From: Actinomycetes bacterium
Lineage (GTDB): Bacteria > Actinomycetota > Acidimicrobiia > Acidimicrobiales > Ilumatobacteraceae
Reading direction: 5' to 3'
Length of the DNA: 53,048 nucleotides
NCBI GenBank assembly: GCA_014190235.1
Contig: BJGC01000014.1
Span: forward strand, 1-53,048
The notes below the pieces were generated by a model. It was given only the letters and a program-made list of their open reading frames with translations. It was not told where the DNA came from and made no database searches. Position numbers and translations under genes: made by a program. Below are positions 15,687 to 28,531 of the stretch, piece after piece. Numbering within the stretch: the stretch's first letter is position 1; every line of letters begins with the position of its first letter.

Positions 15687-15738
15687 CAGAGATTGAGATC
15701 ACATGGTCTCGCGACATCACCGACATCGGGGGTTTTAT

Positions 15739-18024
15739 ATGGGTGGCAGCATTCTTGGTAATCGAGTTCTTCGTAAAGAAGATCCAAAATTTTTAACAGA
15801 AGGTGGCAAGTACGTCGACGACTTGCTTGATGAACCCATGCTTGCTGGTGCAGTTCATGTGACCTACGCGCGGAGCACAGTGGCTCACGGCAACATCACA
15901 TCAATTGACACATCGGATGCCAAAGCAATGCCTGGCATTATTGCAGTGTTCACCGGAGCAGACCTCGACTTGCAACAAGTCCCGTCGGCATTCAACCCGG
16001 CAGCAACACGCACTCTTCTTGCAACCGACAAAGTTCGCTATGTTGGCGAACCAGTTGTTGCCATTGTCAGTCAAACCCGCGAGCAAGGAGAAGACGCGTC
16101 AGAAGCAGTCATCATTAACTACGACGTTCTTCCGGCACTCATTGACCTCGAAGTCTCTATGGCTAGTGATCTTCATTTGTACGCAGCATGCGGAAGCAAC
16201 GTCGTATTTGACACCATGGTTCTAGGACTTCCCGATAACACTGGTGATGCATATTTTGCCGACTGCGAAGTCGTCGTCAAGGGGCGTTACATGAATCAAC
16301 GCGTTGCTCCATGCCCACTCGAGGTTCGCGGCGCCGCCGCTTCATGGGGTGCAAACGGTCGTCTCACGCAATGGTTGTCAACGCAACACGCTCAGGGATC
16401 AGTTGCGCCGATTGCGGCTGCAAACGGTGTTGAAGAATCCCTTGTTCACATTAAGACTCCAGATGTCGGTGGTGGATTCGGTGCCAAAATTGGTGCATAC
16501 CCTGAGGAGTTGTTGCTCGGCCCTATCGCCAAGCGTGTTGGTAAGCCAGTACGTTGGCGCGAGACGCGCAGTGAATCAATGATGGCTCTTGGTCATGGTC
16601 GTGCCCAGTTGCAATATGTCACTATCGGTGGCGATCGTTCTGGCAAAGTCACGCATTATCAATTGTGGGCAATTCAAGACTCTGGTGCATGGGTAGACAT
16701 GGGAACAATCTTGGCTCCATTCATGACTCGCCCAATGTCTTCGGGCGTCTACAACATCCCCAACATTGAATGTCGCACGACATCTGTTGTCACTAACACC
16801 ACACCAATCGTTGCCTATCGTGGTGCTGGTCGCCCCGAAGCAACTGCTGCAATTGAGCGTGCGATGGACATGTTCGCAGCACATATCGAAATGGATCCAG
16901 CAGAGGTTCGCCGGATCAATCTCATTCCGAAGTTTCTTGAACCGCACACGACTGTTGTTGGCCAGACATATGACGTGGGCGACTACGAAACATCGCTCAA
17001 CAAAGCTCTCGCTGCCTCTGATTACGCCGGATGGCGAGCCAAGCAAAAAGTCGCTCGCGCTAGTGGTGCTGTCAAGCAACTAGGTATCGGCGTCAGCGTG
17101 TATGTCGAAATTACTGGTGGCGTGGGTAACGGCGAATCAGCAAAAGTTGAGATTCAAGACAATGGTCATGCCCTGATTTACACAGGAACTTCACCCCATG
17201 GACAAGGTCACGCCACTGCATGGGCCATGTTGGCAAGTGAGCAAACCGGAATCCCGATTGAAAATATCGAACTCGTGTGGGGTGACACAGATCTTGTCCC
17301 CGTCGGCACCGGAACAATGGGCTCTCGTTCATTGCAACAAGGTGGTAACGCAGTGTTCGCTGTGTCAGCAGAGCTTGTCAATAAAGCAAAAACAGTTGCT
17401 GCAAGATTACTCGAAGCAAGTGAGGCAGACATTGTCCTTGACAAGGACGCTGCTGCATTTCACGTTGCCGGTACACCATCCTTAACAAAAACTTGGTCAG
17501 ACCTAGCGAAAGCCGAAAAATCAACAGGTGGACTCGTGCACTCTGATGTCATTGGCGTCACTGGAGCGACATTTCCTTTCGGAGCACACGTCGCAATTGT
17601 CGAAGTCGACACAGAGACAGGAAAAGTCACGCACTTGCGCCACTTCGCGTGCGACGATGCTGGGCGAGTTCTTAATCCATTGTTGCTTGAAGGACAGATT
17701 CATGGCGGAGTTGCTCAAGGAACTGCCCAGGCACTTCTTGAAGAGGTCATCTACGACGCAGACGGAAACCCAACATCTTCAAATCTGGCAGAGTATGCAT
17801 TCATCTCTGCTGCTGAACTTCCAAACATTGATGTGATCCATATGGAAACACCAACTCCATTAAACTTGCTTGGCGCAAAAGGAATTGGTGAGTCCGGAAC
17901 CATTGGGTCCACGCCAGCAGTGCAATCTGCGGTCATTGACGCCGTCTCTCATTTGGGTGTTCGTCACATCGACATGCCAACCACTCCTCAGCGAGTGTGG
18001 CAAGCGATTGCTGCAGCCAACTAA
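15739..18024 (+). CDS. coxL: molybdenum hydroxylase large subunit, form II CoxL-like
   Basis: Large Mo-binding subunit of the xanthine oxidase / CO dehydrogenase family, about 761 residues. The N terminus reads VLRKEDPKFLTEGGKYVDD. The active-site loop is AYRGAGR near residue 359, the form II pattern, not AYxCSFR of true aerobic CO dehydrogenases. The catalytic Glu lies in GIGESGTIG near residue 718. Substrate is therefore unknown and could be an aldehyde, N-heterocycle or another small molecule. The start at 15739 follows a GGGGG ribosome site; an ATG at 15703 would add 12 residues. Unusually, the partner subunits coxS and coxM lie 2.8 kb downstream behind an ABC exporter. Confidence 0.9.
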   Translation: MGGSILGNRVLRKEDPKFLTEGGKYVDDLLDEPMLAGAVHVTYARSTVAHGNITSIDTSDAKAMPGIIAVFTGADLDLQQVPSAFNPAATRTLLATDKVRYVGEPVVAIVSQTREQGEDASEAVIINYDVLPALIDLEVSMASDLHLYAACGSNVVFDTMVLGLPDNTGDAYFADCEVVVKGRYMNQRVAPCPLEVRGAAASWGANGRLTQWLSTQHAQGSVAPIAAANGVEESLVHIKTPDVGGGFGAKIGAYPEELLLGPIAKRVGKPVRWRETRSESMMALGHGRAQLQYVTIGGDRSGKVTHYQLWAIQDSGAWVDMGTILAPFMTRPMSSGVYNIPNIECRTTSVVTNTTPIVAYRGAGRPEATAAIERAMDMFAAHIEMDPAEVRRINLIPKFLEPHTTVVGQTYDVGDYETSLNKALAASDYAGWRAKQKVARASGAVKQLGIGVSVYVEITGGVGNGESAKVEIQDNGHALIYTGTSPHGQGHATAWAMLASEQTGIPIENIELVWGDTDLVPVGTGTMGSRSLQQGGNAVFAVSAELVNKAKTVAARLLEASEADIVLDKDAAAFHVAGTPSLTKTWSDLAKAEKSTGGLVHSDVIGVTGATFPFGAHVAIVEVDTETGKVTHLRHFACDDAGRVLNPLLLEGQIHGGVAQGTAQALLEEVIYDADGNPTSSNLAEYAFISAAELPNIDVIHMETPTPLNLLGAKGIGESGTIGSTPAVQSAVIDAVSHLGVRHIDMPTTPQRVWQAIAAAN

Positions 18025-19059: not shown

Positions 19060-19878
19060 ATGACGACCGCAGTTCTTGCAGCAGCAACGCGACACACCAC
19101 ACGCGACAGCCTGCGCCAAACATTCGCGCTGTCAAAACGCTCGACGCTTGAAATTTTGCGACAACCAGCACTCGTTGCCCCATCACTTATTTTTCCGTTG
19201 TTCTTTGCCGCGCTCGGTGCTAGTTCATTTGGGCGCGCTGTCGGAAAACTCGATGGTTTAAAAGATGTCTCTTCGTTTCTTGAATTTAGTCTGGCCTCCA
19301 CTCTGGCTCAAGGTGTGCTCTTTGGGTCTACCACCGGCGGAACTGCGTTAGCCACTGACATTGAGAATGGTTTTATGGATCGACTACTGGCGTCTCCGAG
19401 CACTCGCATCGGAATCCTGGTGGGGCGTCTAGCAGGTGGATCAGTATTTGGTGCTTTGCAATCAATCTTTTTTATCGTTGCGTTGTACCCGTTTGGCGTG
19501 CGCATTCAAGGCGGAATAATTGGTGCATTCATCATGGTGCTCAGCGGAGCGCTTATTGCGATGTCCATTGGTGGTTTTATGACTGCGATGGCACTCAAGA
19601 CTGGTTCGTCAGAGGCCGTACAGGGAGCGTTTCCGCTTGTCTTTATTAGTTTGTTTTTCTCGAGTGCTTTTTTTCCAAGAGAAAGCATGACAGGCGCATA
19701 CAAAGCAATCGCTAATTACAATCCACTTTCTTATTTAGTTGAAGGACTGCGTGTACTCACTCTGCACGGGCTCACGTCGCAAGCAATAGCCCAATCTCTG
19801 CTGATCCCTATTGCTATTGGTATTGGATCGATCGCACTCTCGCTGCGACAACTCTCCAAAAGATTGGCACAGCAATGA
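19060..19878 (+). CDS. ABC-2 type transporter permease (DrrB-like), first
   Basis: 272 residues from the ATG at 19060, 4 bp after the ATPase stop. About six hydrophobic segments and the conserved cytoplasmic loop DIENGFMDRLLASPSTR are typical of daunorubicin-type ABC-2 permeases in the plasma membrane. The open frame extends back into the ATPase gene but has no support there. It overlaps the second permease by ATGA. Confidence 0.9.
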   Translation: MTTAVLAAATRHTTRDSLRQTFALSKRSTLEILRQPALVAPSLIFPLFFAALGASSFGRAVGKLDGLKDVSSFLEFSLASTLAQGVLFGSTTGGTALATDIENGFMDRLLASPSTRIGILVGRLAGGSVFGALQSIFFIVALYPFGVRIQGGIIGAFIMVLSGALIAMSIGGFMTAMALKTGSSEAVQGAFPLVFISLFFSSAFFPRESMTGAYKAIANYNPLSYLVEGLRVLTLHGLTSQAIAQSLLIPIAIGIGSIALSLRQLSKRLAQQ

Positions 19879-20702
19879 GCACAACAACTCAAAAGATGCT
19901 GCCTCTTGAACCACCGTCAGTTGGTGGATCTCTCTTTGCTAGTTCCAACATGCTCACTCTTCGAGCCATACGCGCAATTCAACGTGTCCCTGCAACATTT
20001 CTTCCAACACTTGCCATGCCAATTTTTCAGGCAGTCGCTTTTGCCGGTACATATTTTGCCATCACAAAGATTCCCGGCTTCCCTACTGATCGATCCATCA
20101 ACTGGTTTCTTTCGCTCTCTGGATGCATGGGTGGAGCCTTTAGCGGTCTTGGACTAGGTTTCTCGGCGATCCGAGATATTGAGAGCGGTTTCATGGATCG
20201 CCTCCGCATGGCACCAACACCGCGCATTGCGTTACTGCTTGGTCCACTCTTGAGTTCTCTTGTTCGAACCTTTGTCGTTCTCACGACGGTATTGGGAGTC
20301 GGATATCTCTTTGGTGCTCGCCCCACGCAAGGGGTTTTTGGAATTTTGATGTTTTATTTGGCTGGATTTGGCTTAGCCATCGTGGCCACCGGCTGGGGTT
20401 TAGGACTTGCCTATCGATTTCGAGACATGCGCGGAGCAGCACTGATGCAACTCACTTTGTTTCTGGTTTTGTTTACCTCAAGTGCTCAAGCTCCCATGTC
20501 CATGATGCAGGGCTGGTTACTGCACGTTGCCCGAGTGAACCCGGCTACCAATATTTTGCGCTTATCTAGGCAGGGCTTCCTCAACCCACCAGTGGGTGGA
20601 GTGACTTGGGAAAATACTTGGGGTGGTTTGCTGGCAATCGTGGTGCTTGGCACTCTCACGATGTGGTTTGCCTATACGGGATTGCGCAAGTTAGACGATT
20701 AA
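19875..20702 (+). CDS. ABC-2 type transporter permease (DrrB-like), second
   Basis: 275 residues. It carries the same loop pattern DIESGFMDRLRMAPTPR as the first permease and a similar six-segment layout, so the exporter is probably a heterodimer with two copies of the ATPase. It is translationally coupled to the first permease. It is the last gene before the structured leader of coxS. Confidence 0.9.
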   Translation: MSTTTQKMLPLEPPSVGGSLFASSNMLTLRAIRAIQRVPATFLPTLAMPIFQAVAFAGTYFAITKIPGFPTDRSINWFLSLSGCMGGAFSGLGLGFSAIRDIESGFMDRLRMAPTPRIALLLGPLLSSLVRTFVVLTTVLGVGYLFGARPTQGVFGILMFYLAGFGLAIVATGWGLGLAYRFRDMRGAALMQLTLFLVLFTSSAQAPMSMMQGWLLHVARVNPATNILRLSRQGFLNPPVGGVTWENTWGGLLAIVVLGTLTMWFAYTGLRKLDD

Positions 20703-20714
20703 CACACAAGAATT

Positions 20715-20771
20715 GAGCCTGTATTGTGCTTCGCTTTGGAGAAAGGCGACCTCAGGCTCTACTTTGTAGAG
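20715..20771 (+). promoter_or_regulatory. candidate structured leader of coxS-coxM with two competing hairpins
   Basis: An outer stem GAGCCTG (20715-20721) pairs with CAGGCTC (20753-20759) and encloses an inner hairpin TCGCTTT (20731-20737), loop GGAG, AAAGGCGA (20742-20749, one bulge). A second hairpin CTCTAC-TTT-GTAGAG (20757-20771) shares bases 20757-20759 with the outer stem, so both cannot fully form together. A GAGGGGGG ribosome site follows at 20780-20787. It could be a cis-acting RNA or, since TATTGT lies at 20722-20727, partly an operator. Confidence 0.4.
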
Positions 20772-20790
20772 GAAGCCGCGAGGGGGGAAC

Positions 20791-21249
20791 GTGAAAATCA
20801 AAATCACTGTCAATGGTACCGACACACAGGGGGACGTGGAGCCACGCACCCTGTTGGTGAACTATGTACGCGAACATTTAGGCCTCACGGCTACCAATAT
20901 TGGTTGCGATACCTCAAGTTGTGGTGCATGCACGGTGCATCTCAACGGAGAGTCCGTCAAGAGTTGCACTATCTTGGCAGTGCAAGCCGATGGCACAAGT
21001 GTCACAACGGTTGAGGGTCTTGCCACCAACGGCGTCATGCATCCGATGCAAGAAGCATTCATGCAAAATCACGGACTCCAGTGCGGATACTGCACCCCCG
21101 GAATGGTGATGGCTGCGATCAGTCTCCTCAAAGAAAATGCAAACCCCACCGAACAAGAAGTCCGCGTTGGCCTCGAGGGAAACCTCTGCCGTTGCACCGG
21201 ATACCACAACATTGTCCAGTCGGTGCTTGCATGCGCCGGCAAGAAGTAA
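20791..21249 (+). CDS. coxS: molybdenum hydroxylase small [2Fe-2S] subunit
   Basis: 152 residues from a GTG preceded by a purine-rich ribosome site. Two iron-sulfur domains are present: the plant-ferredoxin-type cluster motif GCDTSSCGACTV with a later KSC, and the C-terminal helical cluster CGYCTPG with CRCTGYHNIV. All eight expected cysteines are there. It passes electrons from the Mo centre of CoxL to the FAD of CoxM. coxM follows after 26 bp. The upstream 88 bp contain paired hairpins. Confidence 0.96.
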   Translation: MKIKITVNGTDTQGDVEPRTLLVNYVREHLGLTATNIGCDTSSCGACTVHLNGESVKSCTILAVQADGTSVTTVEGLATNGVMHPMQEAFMQNHGLQCGYCTPGMVMAAISLLKENANPTEQEVRVGLEGNLCRCTGYHNIVQSVLACAGKK

Positions 21250-21275: not shown

Positions 21276-22100
21276 GTGATACCTGCACCCTTTGATTACA
21301 AACGCGCATCGTCTGCGGCTGAAGCAATCAGCCTGATCAGCGAATACGGCGATGATGCAAAATTTCTTGCCGGCGGACACAGCCTCTTGCCGCTCATGAA
21401 GTTGCGCCTTGCCTCACCAGCAGTACTGATTGACATTGCTCGCATCACGGACTTGTCATACATCAAAGATGCCGGAGACCACATTGCCATTGGTGCGCTC
21501 ACGCGTCACCATGATGTTGAATACTCAAGTGTTCTCAAACAGCATGCTCCACTCTTGGCACATGCGGCTGGTTTTGTTGGTGACCCTCAGATTCGTCACC
21601 GCGGAACAATCGGCGGGTCAATTGCTCACGCTGATCCTGCAAGTGACTTGCCCGCCACCACATTGGCACTCGGTGCAACGTATGTGGTTCAGGGGCCAAA
21701 CGGAACCCGCGAGATTGCTGCGAGCAACTTCTACAAAGGTTTCCTTGAGTCCGACTTAGCCGCTGACGAAATGCTCACAGAGATTCGTGTTCCAAAAATG
21801 AACGGCGCTGGATGGAGTTTTCAAAAATTCAATCGTCGCGCACAAGACTGGGCTATCGTTGGTGTCGCTGCGTGGCGCCGCGGATCAGAGTCTGGCGTTG
21901 CACTCGTCAACATGGACAACACACCAGTCCTAGCAACAAGCGTCAGTGCGGCTCTTGCATCAGGTGGCTCTATCGCTGATGCTTCTCAGAAGGCTGCGAC
22001 TGAAGCGCATCCATCGGGCGACAACAATGCCACTGCTGAGTACCGCACTCATTTGGCAAAAGTACTCGTGCGTCGCGCGCTTGAGACTGCCTCTGCCTAA
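21276..22100 (+). CDS. coxM: molybdenum hydroxylase medium FAD subunit
   Basis: 274 residues from a GTG with a GGAGGA ribosome site. FAD-binding motifs AGGHSLLP near residue 30 and TIGGSIAHADPASD near residue 110 are intact, as in CO dehydrogenase medium subunits. It accepts electrons from CoxS and passes them on to a quinone or other acceptor. The end overlaps the possible TTG start of the next gene by 20 bp. Confidence 0.95.
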   Translation: MIPAPFDYKRASSAAEAISLISEYGDDAKFLAGGHSLLPLMKLRLASPAVLIDIARITDLSYIKDAGDHIAIGALTRHHDVEYSSVLKQHAPLLAHAAGFVGDPQIRHRGTIGGSIAHADPASDLPATTLALGATYVVQGPNGTREIAASNFYKGFLESDLAADEMLTEIRVPKMNGAGWSFQKFNRRAQDWAIVGVAAWRRGSESGVALVNMDNTPVLATSVSAALASGGSIADASQKAATEAHPSGDNNATAEYRTHLAKVLVRRALETASA

Positions 22101-25353: not shown

Positions 25354-26277
25354 ATGCTTGCTAGAGAACTCACCACGGCTGATGTCCGCTCAGGACTCGC
25401 CACACACGGGTATCTCACCGACGATGGCCTTGCCACTTCGGTGTTGCTCGCTCTTTCGTTGCAACGACCACTCTTGCTTGAAGGCGAAGCAGGTGTCGGA
25501 AAAACTGAACTAGCCAAAACGATTGCCCGCTGGCGTGGTGCAGATTTGATTCGACTGCAATGTTACGAAGGTATTGATGCATCGCAAGCCGTGTATGACT
25601 GGGACTACTCACGTCAGTTGTTGCACTTGCGTGCAGCAGAAGCAAGTGGTGAGGCACGGGCATCCGGAACAGATGCTCTTGAGGGTCAACTCTACAGCGA
25701 GCGCTTTTTACTCAAGCGCGCACTATTGCGCGCCATCGACAACACATCCACGACTCCTCCTGTTTTATTAATTGACGAAATCGATCGCGCAGATGATGAG
25801 TTTGAGGCGTACTTACTCGAGATCCTCTCAGATTTTCAAGTCACGGTTCCGGAACTCGGAACATTTACTGCCACCACGCCACCTATTGTGATCCTGACAT
25901 CAAATCGCACCCGTGATGTGCACGATGCACTCAAGCGACGCTGTCTATATCACTGGGTAGAACATCCCACGTTTGATCGTGAAGTCAGCATTGTGCAGGC
26001 CCGTGTCCCTGATGTTTCTTTGGTTCTTGCCCGTCAAGTAGCCGGCGCCGTTGAGAGTTTGCGTTCACTCAATATGTACAAACCACCTGGCGTAGCAGAG
26101 ACCATTGATTGGGCAACAGCACTTGGCAGACTCGGCACAACTCAACTTGATGAATCGATTATTGAGGCAACACTTGGGACAGTTCTGAAATACCGAGAAG
26201 ATCATGATCGGGTGCGTGAATACGGAATCTCGACAATTGTTCAAGCCGCGTTTGATCGTGGCTTACTTCACGGATAG
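25354..26277 (+). CDS. coxD: MoxR/CoxD-type AAA+ ATPase
   Basis: 307 residues. Walker A is GEAGVGKTEL near residue 47, Walker B is VLLIDEIDRAD, and sensor 1 is ILTSNRTRD. CoxD proteins are MoxR-family ATPases that, with the VWA protein CoxE, act as chaperones in the final assembly of the CO dehydrogenase active site. coxE follows after 8 bp. The start is supported by a TACGCT hexamer. Symbol is by analogy, since the enzyme served here is form II. Confidence 0.88.
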   Translation: MLARELTTADVRSGLATHGYLTDDGLATSVLLALSLQRPLLLEGEAGVGKTELAKTIARWRGADLIRLQCYEGIDASQAVYDWDYSRQLLHLRAAEASGEARASGTDALEGQLYSERFLLKRALLRAIDNTSTTPPVLLIDEIDRADDEFEAYLLEILSDFQVTVPELGTFTATTPPIVILTSNRTRDVHDALKRRCLYHWVEHPTFDREVSIVQARVPDVSLVLARQVAGAVESLRSLNMYKPPGVAETIDWATALGRLGTTQLDESIIEATLGTVLKYREDHDRVREYGISTIVQAAFDRGLLHG

Positions 26278-26285
26278 ATCCCGGC

Positions 26286-27407
26286 ATGCAGTCAGCAACC
26301 GTCGTCGAGGCAGATCGACTTGCAGTTGGATTTGCCCGCGTTTTGCGAGGCGTCGGAATCTCATCTCCCCTCGACTCAGTGCTGACTTTTGTGCAGGCCC
26401 TGGGAGTTGTTGGGATGAACGACAAAGACTCTGTGTATTGGGCAGCACGCAGCACATTGGTGCGCCGACCAGAAGATTTACCGCTCTTTGATAAAGCCTT
26501 CCGAGTTTTTTGGCAACAACGCGAGTCTCCAGAATTCGTTCAAGAAACTGCATTACCTTTTACTATTGCAACTGATGATGATTCGCCAAATCTAAACGAC
26601 GGTCAATCTGGTGCATCTGATGATCCGCTTATCACGCTTCGATTCTCTGCAGTCGAAACTCTCCGTGAAAAAGATTTTGCGACATACACCGATGATGAGA
26701 TGCATCTTGCACATCAACTGATGTCACAGTTACGCCTTGCGGGTCCACCACGCCAATCTTTGCGCGGAGTGAAATCAAAACGACGCGGAATGCGTCCCGA
26801 TCTGCGTCGCACGATTCGTGCATCTTTTGCTGCTGGAGGCGAACCCGTCGAACGCCGATGGCTCGAACCTGGTCAACGCTCTCGACGATTAGTGCTCTTG
26901 CTCGACGTCAGCGGTTCGATGGAGCCGTACGCTCGGGCATTGGTGCGCTTTGTGCACGCAGCAGTCGCTGGCAGACAACGTGTTGAGGCTTTTACTCTTG
27001 GCACACGTCTGACTCGCATCACCCGCGAACTCACATCTCGAGATCCTGATCGGGCCCTCCTCTTGGCCAGTTCCCGGGTGCAGGACTGGAGTGGCGGAAC
27101 TCGTTTAGGCGACACCCTGCGCCAATTCAACGACCGTTGGGGGGTGCGCGGCATGGCTCGTGGCGCAATTGTTGTCCTGCTTTCAGACGGCTGGGACCGT
27201 GGCGACCCCGAGATGTTGGCAGAGCAAATGGCTCGCCTGCACCGAGTCGCTTTTCGAGTGGTGTGGGTGAATCCGCTTAAAGTGACTCCTGGATACGCAC
27301 CCCTGGCGCGCGGAATGGCCGTGGCGTTGCCATACGTAGATGACTTTGTCGAGGGACACTCGGTGGAAGCACTCGAACAACTCACTAAAGTCATCAGTCG
27401 TGCGTGA
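26286..27407 (+). CDS. coxE: CoxE-like von Willebrand factor A domain protein
   Basis: 373 residues. An N-terminal helical region is followed by a VWA domain from about residue 200, with an intact metal-ion-dependent adhesion site DVSGSM. Partner of the CoxD-type ATPase in maturation of molybdenum hydroxylases, acting in the cytoplasm. Its last 8 bp overlap the start of the XdhC-like gene, so the maturation genes are translated together. Confidence 0.9.
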   Translation: MQSATVVEADRLAVGFARVLRGVGISSPLDSVLTFVQALGVVGMNDKDSVYWAARSTLVRRPEDLPLFDKAFRVFWQQRESPEFVQETALPFTIATDDDSPNLNDGQSGASDDPLITLRFSAVETLREKDFATYTDDEMHLAHQLMSQLRLAGPPRQSLRGVKSKRRGMRPDLRRTIRASFAAGGEPVERRWLEPGQRSRRLVLLLDVSGSMEPYARALVRFVHAAVAGRQRVEAFTLGTRLTRITRELTSRDPDRALLLASSRVQDWSGGTRLGDTLRQFNDRWGVRGMARGAIVVLLSDGWDRGDPEMLAEQMARLHRVAFRVVWVNPLKVTPGYAPLARGMAVALPYVDDFVEGHSVEALEQLTKVISRA

Positions 27408-27717
27408 ACTTCTTGGTGATATTGACCGCTGGAAATCCCAGGGTAAACGAGTTGCTCTCGCGCGAGTTGTTGACACAGAGGGCTCTGGGCCTCGTGAAAC
27501 AGGAGCGGCAATGGCCGTGAATGAAGATGGTGATGTCATTGGGTCAGTGAGCGGTGGTTGTGTAGAAAGTGCGGTAGTTGGCGAAGCACTCGCCATCTTG
27601 AACGGTGAACAATCAGCACGCGTCGTCACCTTTGGATACTCAGACAATGAAGCATTCGCCGTCGGATTGACATGCGGCGGCACGATTCATCTTTTTATTC
27701 AGCCACTTGAGTGGTAG
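27400..27717 (+). CDS. short XdhC/CoxI-type protein, N-terminal domain only
   Basis: 105 residues from the GTG overlapping the coxE stop. It consists of the XdhC_CoxI domain alone: VALARVVDTEGSGPRETGAAMAV, the conserved GSVSGGCVE, and a C-terminal CGGTIHLFI. XdhC proteins bind sulfurated Mo cofactor and hand it to the hydroxylase. The Rossmann domain that usually follows is absent here but present in the next gene, so the two may act as a pair. The open frame extends 60 nt further upstream without support. Confidence 0.88.
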   Translation: MRELLGDIDRWKSQGKRVALARVVDTEGSGPRETGAAMAVNEDGDVIGSVSGGCVESAVVGEALAILNGEQSARVVTFGYSDNEAFAVGLTCGGTIHLFIQPLEW

Positions 27718-27730
27718 TGACTCACTTGCC

Positions 27731-28531
27731 ATGACTGTCTACACCACCCTGGCTACACGCATCCGCGCCAATCAACCCGTTGCACTTGCCACTGTTATTG
27801 ACGGGCCACACGTTGGTTTGACACTGCTCATGAGCCCCGAAGGAATCCTTGGAGGAACACTTGGTGATGCCGAACTTGACAGAGTCGTAGCGCGTGATGC
27901 AGTTGGAGAGTTAGAAGCGGGTCGCACCAGTATTCGTCACTATGGTCCCCAAGGTGAATCAACACCAGAAGATCTTGTGGACACGCCAACCGTGCGTGTA
28001 TTTGTTGAAAGTTTTTCTCCCCCTCCTCGCATGTGGATCTTTGGCGCCGTTGATTTCACCGCTGCACTCGCCAAGGTCGCAAAAGTTTTGGGATACCACG
28101 TCACTGTTTGCGATGCGCGAGAAGTTTTTGCGACACGTCGTCGCTTTCCGATGGCTGATGATGTCATTGTCTCTTGGCCAACACCGCTCTTTGAAAAAGA
28201 AGGTCAAGTCCTGGGACCCCGTGATGCCGTATGCATACTCACCCACGACCCCAAGTTTGATGTGCCTGCTATTCAAGGTGCACTGCGTACATCGGTTGGA
28301 TATATCGGGGTCATGGGCAGTCGCAAGACACACGCCAAACGCCTCGAACGCCTGACCGAAGTCGGAGTCACTGATGCATCTGATCTTGCACGTCTGTTGT
28401 CGCCGATTGGTCTTGATCTTGGTGCACGAACACCAGAAGAGACTGCCATCGCAATCTGTGCCGAGATCATTGCTCGACGCACAGGACGTCTCGCTACGTC
28501 ACTGAGCGCAACGAACGGGCCAATTCACTAA
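27731..28531 (+). CDS. XdhC/CoxF family Mo-cofactor maturation protein
   Basis: 266 residues from the ATG at 27731; a TTG at 27707 would overlap the previous gene by 11 bp. The N-terminal XdhC_CoxI domain is degenerate (its GSVSGGCVE counterpart is GGTLGDAEL), followed by a Rossmann-like XdhC_C domain with MWIFGAVDFTAALAKVAK, AVCILTHDPKFD and GYIGVMGSRKTH. Probably a CoxF-like insertase for the sulfurated cofactor. Convergent with the NlpC gene (5 bp gap). Confidence 0.88.
   Translation: MTVYTTLATRIRANQPVALATVIDGPHVGLTLLMSPEGILGGTLGDAELDRVVARDAVGELEAGRTSIRHYGPQGESTPEDLVDTPTVRVFVESFSPPPRMWIFGAVDFTAALAKVAKVLGYHVTVCDAREVFATRRRFPMADDVIVSWPTPLFEKEGQVLGPRDAVCILTHDPKFDVPAIQGALRTSVGYIGVMGSRKTHAKRLERLTEVGVTDASDLARLLSPIGLDLGARTPEETAIAICAEIIARRTGRLATSLSATNGPIH

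Follow-up and report, generated by a model that had tools for sequence, protein, structure and literature searches.

The 88-nt gap upstream of coxS is best read, tentatively, as a promoter followed by a short untranslated leader of coxS-coxM, in which a simple stem-loop would protect the mRNA or space the ribosome site. In this gap, part of a 53,048-nt contig that was analysed over its whole length (hereafter the window), we found a 3' hairpin that is kept in two sister genomes. Similarly placed stem-loops, some with two-sided changes, are present in other genera (g2, g4, and part of g51 and g10). It is our inference that transcription covers the 3' hairpin, that one and the same element underlies the stem-loops of the various genera, and that their role is a stabilising or spacing one. 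As proposed here, the 3' hairpin would be the one described stem likely to matter, placed after the transcription start and ahead of the ribosome site; it would shield the 5' part of the mRNA from decay and leave the ribosome site free of pairing, with a fixed spacing. Such a stem-loop would sense nothing, so that its letters could drift while pairing was kept, and the other two stems (outer and inner) would be chance features of this one genome. We rank this reading first, a chance origin of the hairpins second and an operator dyad third. If real, the leader stem-loop helps to place the transcription start of coxS-coxM in uncultured actinobacteria, and suggests that expression of these two genes is separate from that of the large subunit and of the ABC genes in between. 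Literature searches returned nothing that we recognised as describing such a coxS leader.

Genomic setting of the coxS leader

In the 2.0-Mb genome to which the window belongs, the large-subunit gene comes first, then those for an ABC-type ATPase and ABC permeases, and last those for the small and the medium subunit (Table 1); downstream accessory genes at 25354-28531 encode an AAA ATPase, a CoxE-like VWA protein and two XdhC/CoxI proteins (assigned by Pfam). Thirteen NCBIfam models matched the large subunit, every one with a score under its cut-off, and all NCBIfam models that matched any of the three subunits likewise fell below their cut-offs; coxS and coxM are therefore names of convenience. 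PMC13203968 gives AYRGAGR as the form II motif of the large subunit and describes what form II does as unclear. Form I CO dehydrogenase was considered and rejected, as AYXCSFR is absent and the large subunit has AYRGAGR (motif meaning from PMC13203968). Judged from its sequence, the enzyme is a carrier of the form II motif and a putative, not a proven, CO dehydrogenase.

Table 1. Features of the coxL-coxS-coxM region and of the gap before coxS
Feature	Position	Strand	Basis
coxL-like large subunit, molybdopterin-binding	15703..18024	+	Pfam MoCoBD_1/2; motif AYRGAGR
ABC-2 permease, ending 88 nt before coxS	19875..20702	+	Pfam ABC2_membrane; ORF
Candidate promoter TTAACA-17-TATTGT	20699..20727	+	9/12 matches; 0.1 expected in shuffles
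Outer stem GAGCCTG/CAGGCTC, 7 bp, loop 31 nt	20715-20721/20753-20759	+	sequence
Tentative alternative outer stem CTTCGC/GCGAGG, overlapping ribosome site	20729-20734/20778-20783	+	6/6 pairs, three genomes
Inner hairpin CGCTTT/AAGGCG, one G-U	20732-20737/20743-20748	+	sequence
3' hairpin CTCTAC-TTT-GTAGAG	20757-20762/20766-20771	+	sequence
Purine-rich ribosome site GAGGGGGG	20780..20787	+	sequence; GTG start at 20791
coxS-like [2Fe-2S] subunit	20791..21249	+	Pfam Fer2_2 and Fer2
coxM-like FAD subunit	21276..22100	+	Pfam FAD_binding_5 and CO_deh_flav_C

Matches to coxS were found in 65 of 81 genomes, the window's own included (E 1e-20), and in 180 of 221 family genomes (E 1e-66). Among the best 30 coxS loci, the end of coxL lies at most 53 nt upstream of coxS in 19, an ABC-type permease lies upstream in six (L001, L004, L005, L013, L014 and L026) and some other gene in five, these upstream classes being our own reading. 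Within the genus (21 loci among L001 and L004-L032), coxS directly follows coxL in 18; coxL and coxS are separated by ABC genes in the window, L004 and L005.

The leader of the window is common to only two others among the leaders read, L004 (genome G027) and L005 (genome G031). A DNA search with 20700-20850 against the 221 family genomes gave one strong match besides the window, to G027 from 20728 on; the remaining matches, from E 2.2e-4 upwards, are short or start no earlier than 20781, and the similarity of the G031 leader was recognised by alignment. The coxS of L004 is 93% identical to that of the window, and in a genome-contig search covering 70 loci, which may exclude records of the window's own genome, the next best coxS after the sister genomes is 83% identical. 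No further close relatives were found in plasmids, and viral contigs held no match to one exact 20-base pattern.

Stems in the intergenic gap

All three stems reported in the original prediction (outer, inner and 3') are present; the 3' hairpin and the outer stem do share three bases (20757-20759), and the ribosome site starts after 8 further nucleotides, followed by the GTG. When the 88 nt were put through 5000 dinucleotide shuffles, a 7-bp repeat with a loop of 3-40 nt appeared in 445 of them, a 6-bp hairpin with a loop of 3-8 nt in 444, and the two together in 123; among 1204 tiles of 88 nt from the window, 145 hold the repeat, 139 the hairpin and 47 both. The folding energy of 20690-20790 has a z of -0.30, with 70 of 200 shuffles at least as good. 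An upstream gap of 60 nt or more was computed for 23 genes of the window; of these, coxS and one other have a stem of at least 6 bp, and four have a lower fold z than coxS. Within the window alone, the stems are hardly more than chance. These repeat counts and the fold z speak for the second-ranked reading, which we consider unlikely, that the window's hairpins are meaningless and that 20757-20771 was kept through the closeness of the sisters or through overlap with promoter letters.

Which stem forms depends on where folding begins. The best fold of 20690-20790 lacks the outer stem. In favour of the nested fold, the leader folded from 20703 (20703-20820) contains the outer and inner stems together; they are absent when it is folded from 20690, 20729 or 20734. 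The 3' hairpin forms when the leader is folded from 20757 and is absent from folds begun at 20690, 20703, 20729 or 20734.

Conservation in two sister genomes

In neither L004 nor L005 does the outer stem form a contiguous helix. The three-genome alignment (A5) shows a break of 10 nt in its 5' arm and the loss of its innermost pair in each sister; by eye, GCCT/AGGC (4 bp) is still contiguous in L004. The inner stem is broken at two of its six pairs in each sister. Outer and inner stems together have 79.5% of cells paired on A5, with two-sided changes in two columns, both of the outer stem and in L005, where the 5' arm is split; 65 of 500 shuffles do as well. A conserved switch made of the nested, mutually exclusive folds is thus not borne out.

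L004 carries the 3' hairpin unchanged. L005 differs at four of the 12 stem letters and keeps five of the six pairs, the changes being one two-sided, one G-U and one mismatch, so that the window clade has one pair with a two-sided change among three sequences. The retention of five pairs despite four changed letters counts against chance. The earlier suggestion of a cis-acting RNA near the start finds partial support in the stem-loop by the ribosome site, which both sisters keep, and is not supported for the nested folds, which they do not. The window's own version of the hairpin is found in three genomes only.

No intrinsic terminator turned up in 20600-20850 of the window, nor did the plus strand of L005 have a terminator-like site. 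In L004 alone, the permease is followed by a weak hairpin of terminator type, GCCTC-TGG-GAGGC, which has a T-rich tail (1427-1439).

Leader stem-loops in other genera

A further 120 coxS leaders were collected and compared. Some genera have a stem-loop of 5-15 bp between a -10-like box and the ribosome site, with a sequence unrelated to that of the window: much of g4 has the arms GTTCGGC/GCCGAAC, much of g2 has GCAAC/GTTGC and much of g10 has GGGGTTC/GAACCCC, and part of g51 has a 15-bp stem. The stem-loops of different genera do not align.

Within genera, we aligned rows picked for looking alike: 16 of the 21 distinct g4 leaders (A1; L068, L071, L074, L075 and L081 omitted, L092 repeating L080), seven of 17 from g51 (A2) and eight of 12 from g2 (A4). 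A further set, seven of 11 from g10 (A3), was dropped from further use because MAFFT misplaced the arms of one row. In g4, 91.1% of cells are paired, against 9.8-43.8% when the structure is slid, with the count for row L064 lowered by a one-base shift in its stem. Three g4 pairs have two-sided changes, a number reached by four of 500 shuffles, and the covariation score is reached by 10 of 500; the number of further pair types, reached by 286 of 500, fails its control. The 15-bp stem of g51 has 97.8% of cells paired (36.7-44.4% when slid), no pair changed on both sides and a covariation score reached by 413 of 500 shuffles. In g2, the 5-bp stem is paired in 100% of cells with one two-sided change, which 64 of 500 shuffles reach. 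Hence g4 passes most controls, and g2 and g51 fail the shuffle control. Of the compensatory changes looked for in homologues, some are seen in the stem-loops of other genera, and the outer and inner helices are not kept intact.

RNAalifold returned the 7-bp stem from a set of 10 distinct g10 leaders, did not recover the stem-loop from the full g4 (21) and g51 (16) sets (-1.2 and -0.9 kcal/mol), and gave other pairings for g53, g59 and g14 (-4.2, -2.1 and -7.1). When 36 hand-picked leaders were pooled (the distinct ones among 38 rows in A1-A4), there were 251 Watson-Crick, 26 G-U, six A-C and three other cells, and six of 34 pair columns showed two Watson-Crick types.

Fold z was computed for 116 of 128 leaders (four with coxL directly upstream were skipped and eight repeat other rows), a sample that omits 19 loci with coxL just upstream of coxS. 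For the stretch from -50 to -14, mean z is -1.82 in g4, -1.59 in g10, -1.49 in g1, -1.27 in g51 and -0.69 in g2, against -0.03, -0.36, -0.15, -0.76 and -0.02, respectively, in a control further upstream. Ten groups (g11, g13, g18, g53, g55, g56, g57, g59, g9 and f13) have mean z of -0.18 to 1.30, and g6 (-0.38), g14 (-0.47) and g7 (-0.84, one sequence) also give little signal. Averaged over all the groups, z is -0.29 in the leader and -0.11 in both of two controls. Since z lies below the control in g1, g2, g4, g10 and g51 and near zero in ten other groups, the stem-loop is a feature of some genera and not of the family; little leader fold signal was seen in 13 of 18 groups, and the stem-loop is missing from most genera sampled. 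The presence of similarly placed stem-loops in four other genera, with fold z below the upstream control, is a further argument against chance.

Other arrangements were also noted around the ribosome site. In g14 and g53 (L031, L111, L112, L114 and L121-L128), it lies within GAC(C)CGAGGGGAGTC, with one difference in L114, and is flanked by complementary GAC and GTC. In g10 (L082, L083, L086 and L161-L163), a second hairpin, CCGTC/GACGG (shorter in L086), stands just before the ribosome site and overlaps the 3' arm of the first.

Promoter-like elements

A transcript from the candidate promoter would start near 20734, past the 5' arm of the outer stem. The same scan found no promoter-like site in the L004 and L005 leaders, so that of the alternative first proposed, a promoter with an operator, the promoter is recovered in the window and in neither sister. 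In L004 and L005, the stretch that lies 4 nt ahead of the hairpin reads GGCATCAT and AGCATTAT, and in the window it reads GGCGACCT; taken as -10 boxes, these would put the start inside the hairpin, which counts against the leader stem-loop. A weak arrangement under the scan threshold, TTGGAG-18-TACTTT (TTGGAC-18-TACTTT in L004, TTGAAC-18-TATCCT in L005), overlaps the 3' hairpin and lends some weight to the chance reading.

Many coxS leaders of other genera carry a box that we read as -10-like (GGGGCATGATT, GAGGCATAATA, GGGCAGAATA or GGGGCAATACT). Separately, a box TGAGGCATGATG or close variants of it stands about 40-90 nt before coxS across genera (examples are L027, L028, L032, L115-L122, L133-L135, L141 and L170-L172), including another family of the order (L172). 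Genome-wide, GRGGCATGATK has 31 matches in nine genomes, with 0-7 in each, and the reversed control has nine; among 20 sites fetched, those at L243 and L258 stand upstream of ORFs of 298 and 408 aa, at distances of 35 and 55 nt. The TGAGGCATGATG box could serve as a -10 element or as a site for a regulator.

Possible operator dyads and switches

The third-ranked reading, which we regard as doubtful, is that the dyad at 20757-20771 and the palindromes of other genera are places on the DNA, just past the -10 box, where a dimeric regulator binds. In g4, the repeat forms a palindrome of 20 bp whose arms are 7 bp long and whose centre is mostly 6 nt, as is usual for operators, and it lies downstream of a GGGGCATGATT-like box. 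In the pooled leaders, the excess of G-U over A-C cells leans towards RNA pairing; however, counted by columns it is 10 to 5 (p 0.15), which leaves RNA pairing unproven over DNA symmetry. The half-site arms are similar within the 16 g4 leaders and different between genera (GTTCGGC, GCAAC, GGGGTTC, CTCTAC), arms vary inside g4 too (CTTCAA in four leaders), and loop lengths are variable; differences of this kind between genera argue against the operator of one regulator. No regulator gene was recognised among the scanned neighbours, which comprise part of the ORFs.

An improbable alternative is a ribosome-site switch, in which CTTCGC would pair with GCGAGG to hide the ribosome site and other folds would free it. 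RNAalifold picks this stem on the three genomes; all six pairs are present in each, one with a two-sided change from G-C to A-U, and the stem appears in single-sequence folds of L004 and L005 begun at CTTC. Combined with the 3' hairpin it has 97.2% of cells paired and two two-sided changes, one per helix; however, this structure was chosen by RNAalifold from the same three sequences on which it was tested, and its score was reached by 65 of 500 shuffles, as was that of the outer and inner stems, so that with three sequences this control favours neither structure. In the best fold of the window's own leader the stem is absent, and by eye no counterpart was noticed in other genera. A broader version, that a fast-evolving leader RNA of Ilumatobacteraceae Mo-hydroxylases combines a drifting stem-loop with a ribosome-site stem and switches coxS translation on some cue, seems similarly improbable.

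The cofactor-sensing RNA first suggested, a molybdenum-cofactor or other riboswitch, is the remotest reading: the genes do encode a Mo hydroxylase, but a search of 20600-20900 against Rfam gave nothing at E up to 1, at gathering score the window's only Rfam matches were two tRNAs located elsewhere and 18 related loci had none, no conserved single-stranded core was seen, the outer stem is not conserved, and the leaders are short if the -10-like boxes are correct. If real, the leader stem-loop would also remove most of the riboswitch case at this locus.

Comparison with known systems

The Moco RNA motif of Rfam is a molybdenum cofactor RNA found upstream of Mo-enzyme genes. The coxS leader resembles it in position, and differs in giving no Rfam match, in having no conserved core that we could see, and in being far shorter. 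Palindromic operators of dimeric regulators are matched by the arm length, centre and placement of the g4 repeat, but not by arms that differ from genus to genus as those of the coxS leaders do. Stem-loops at the 5' end stabilise bacterial mRNAs, as in the ompA leader. The window's leader is unrelated in sequence to ompA-type stem-loops; it would share with them a simple leader stem-loop before the ribosome site, in which letters drift and pairing is kept.
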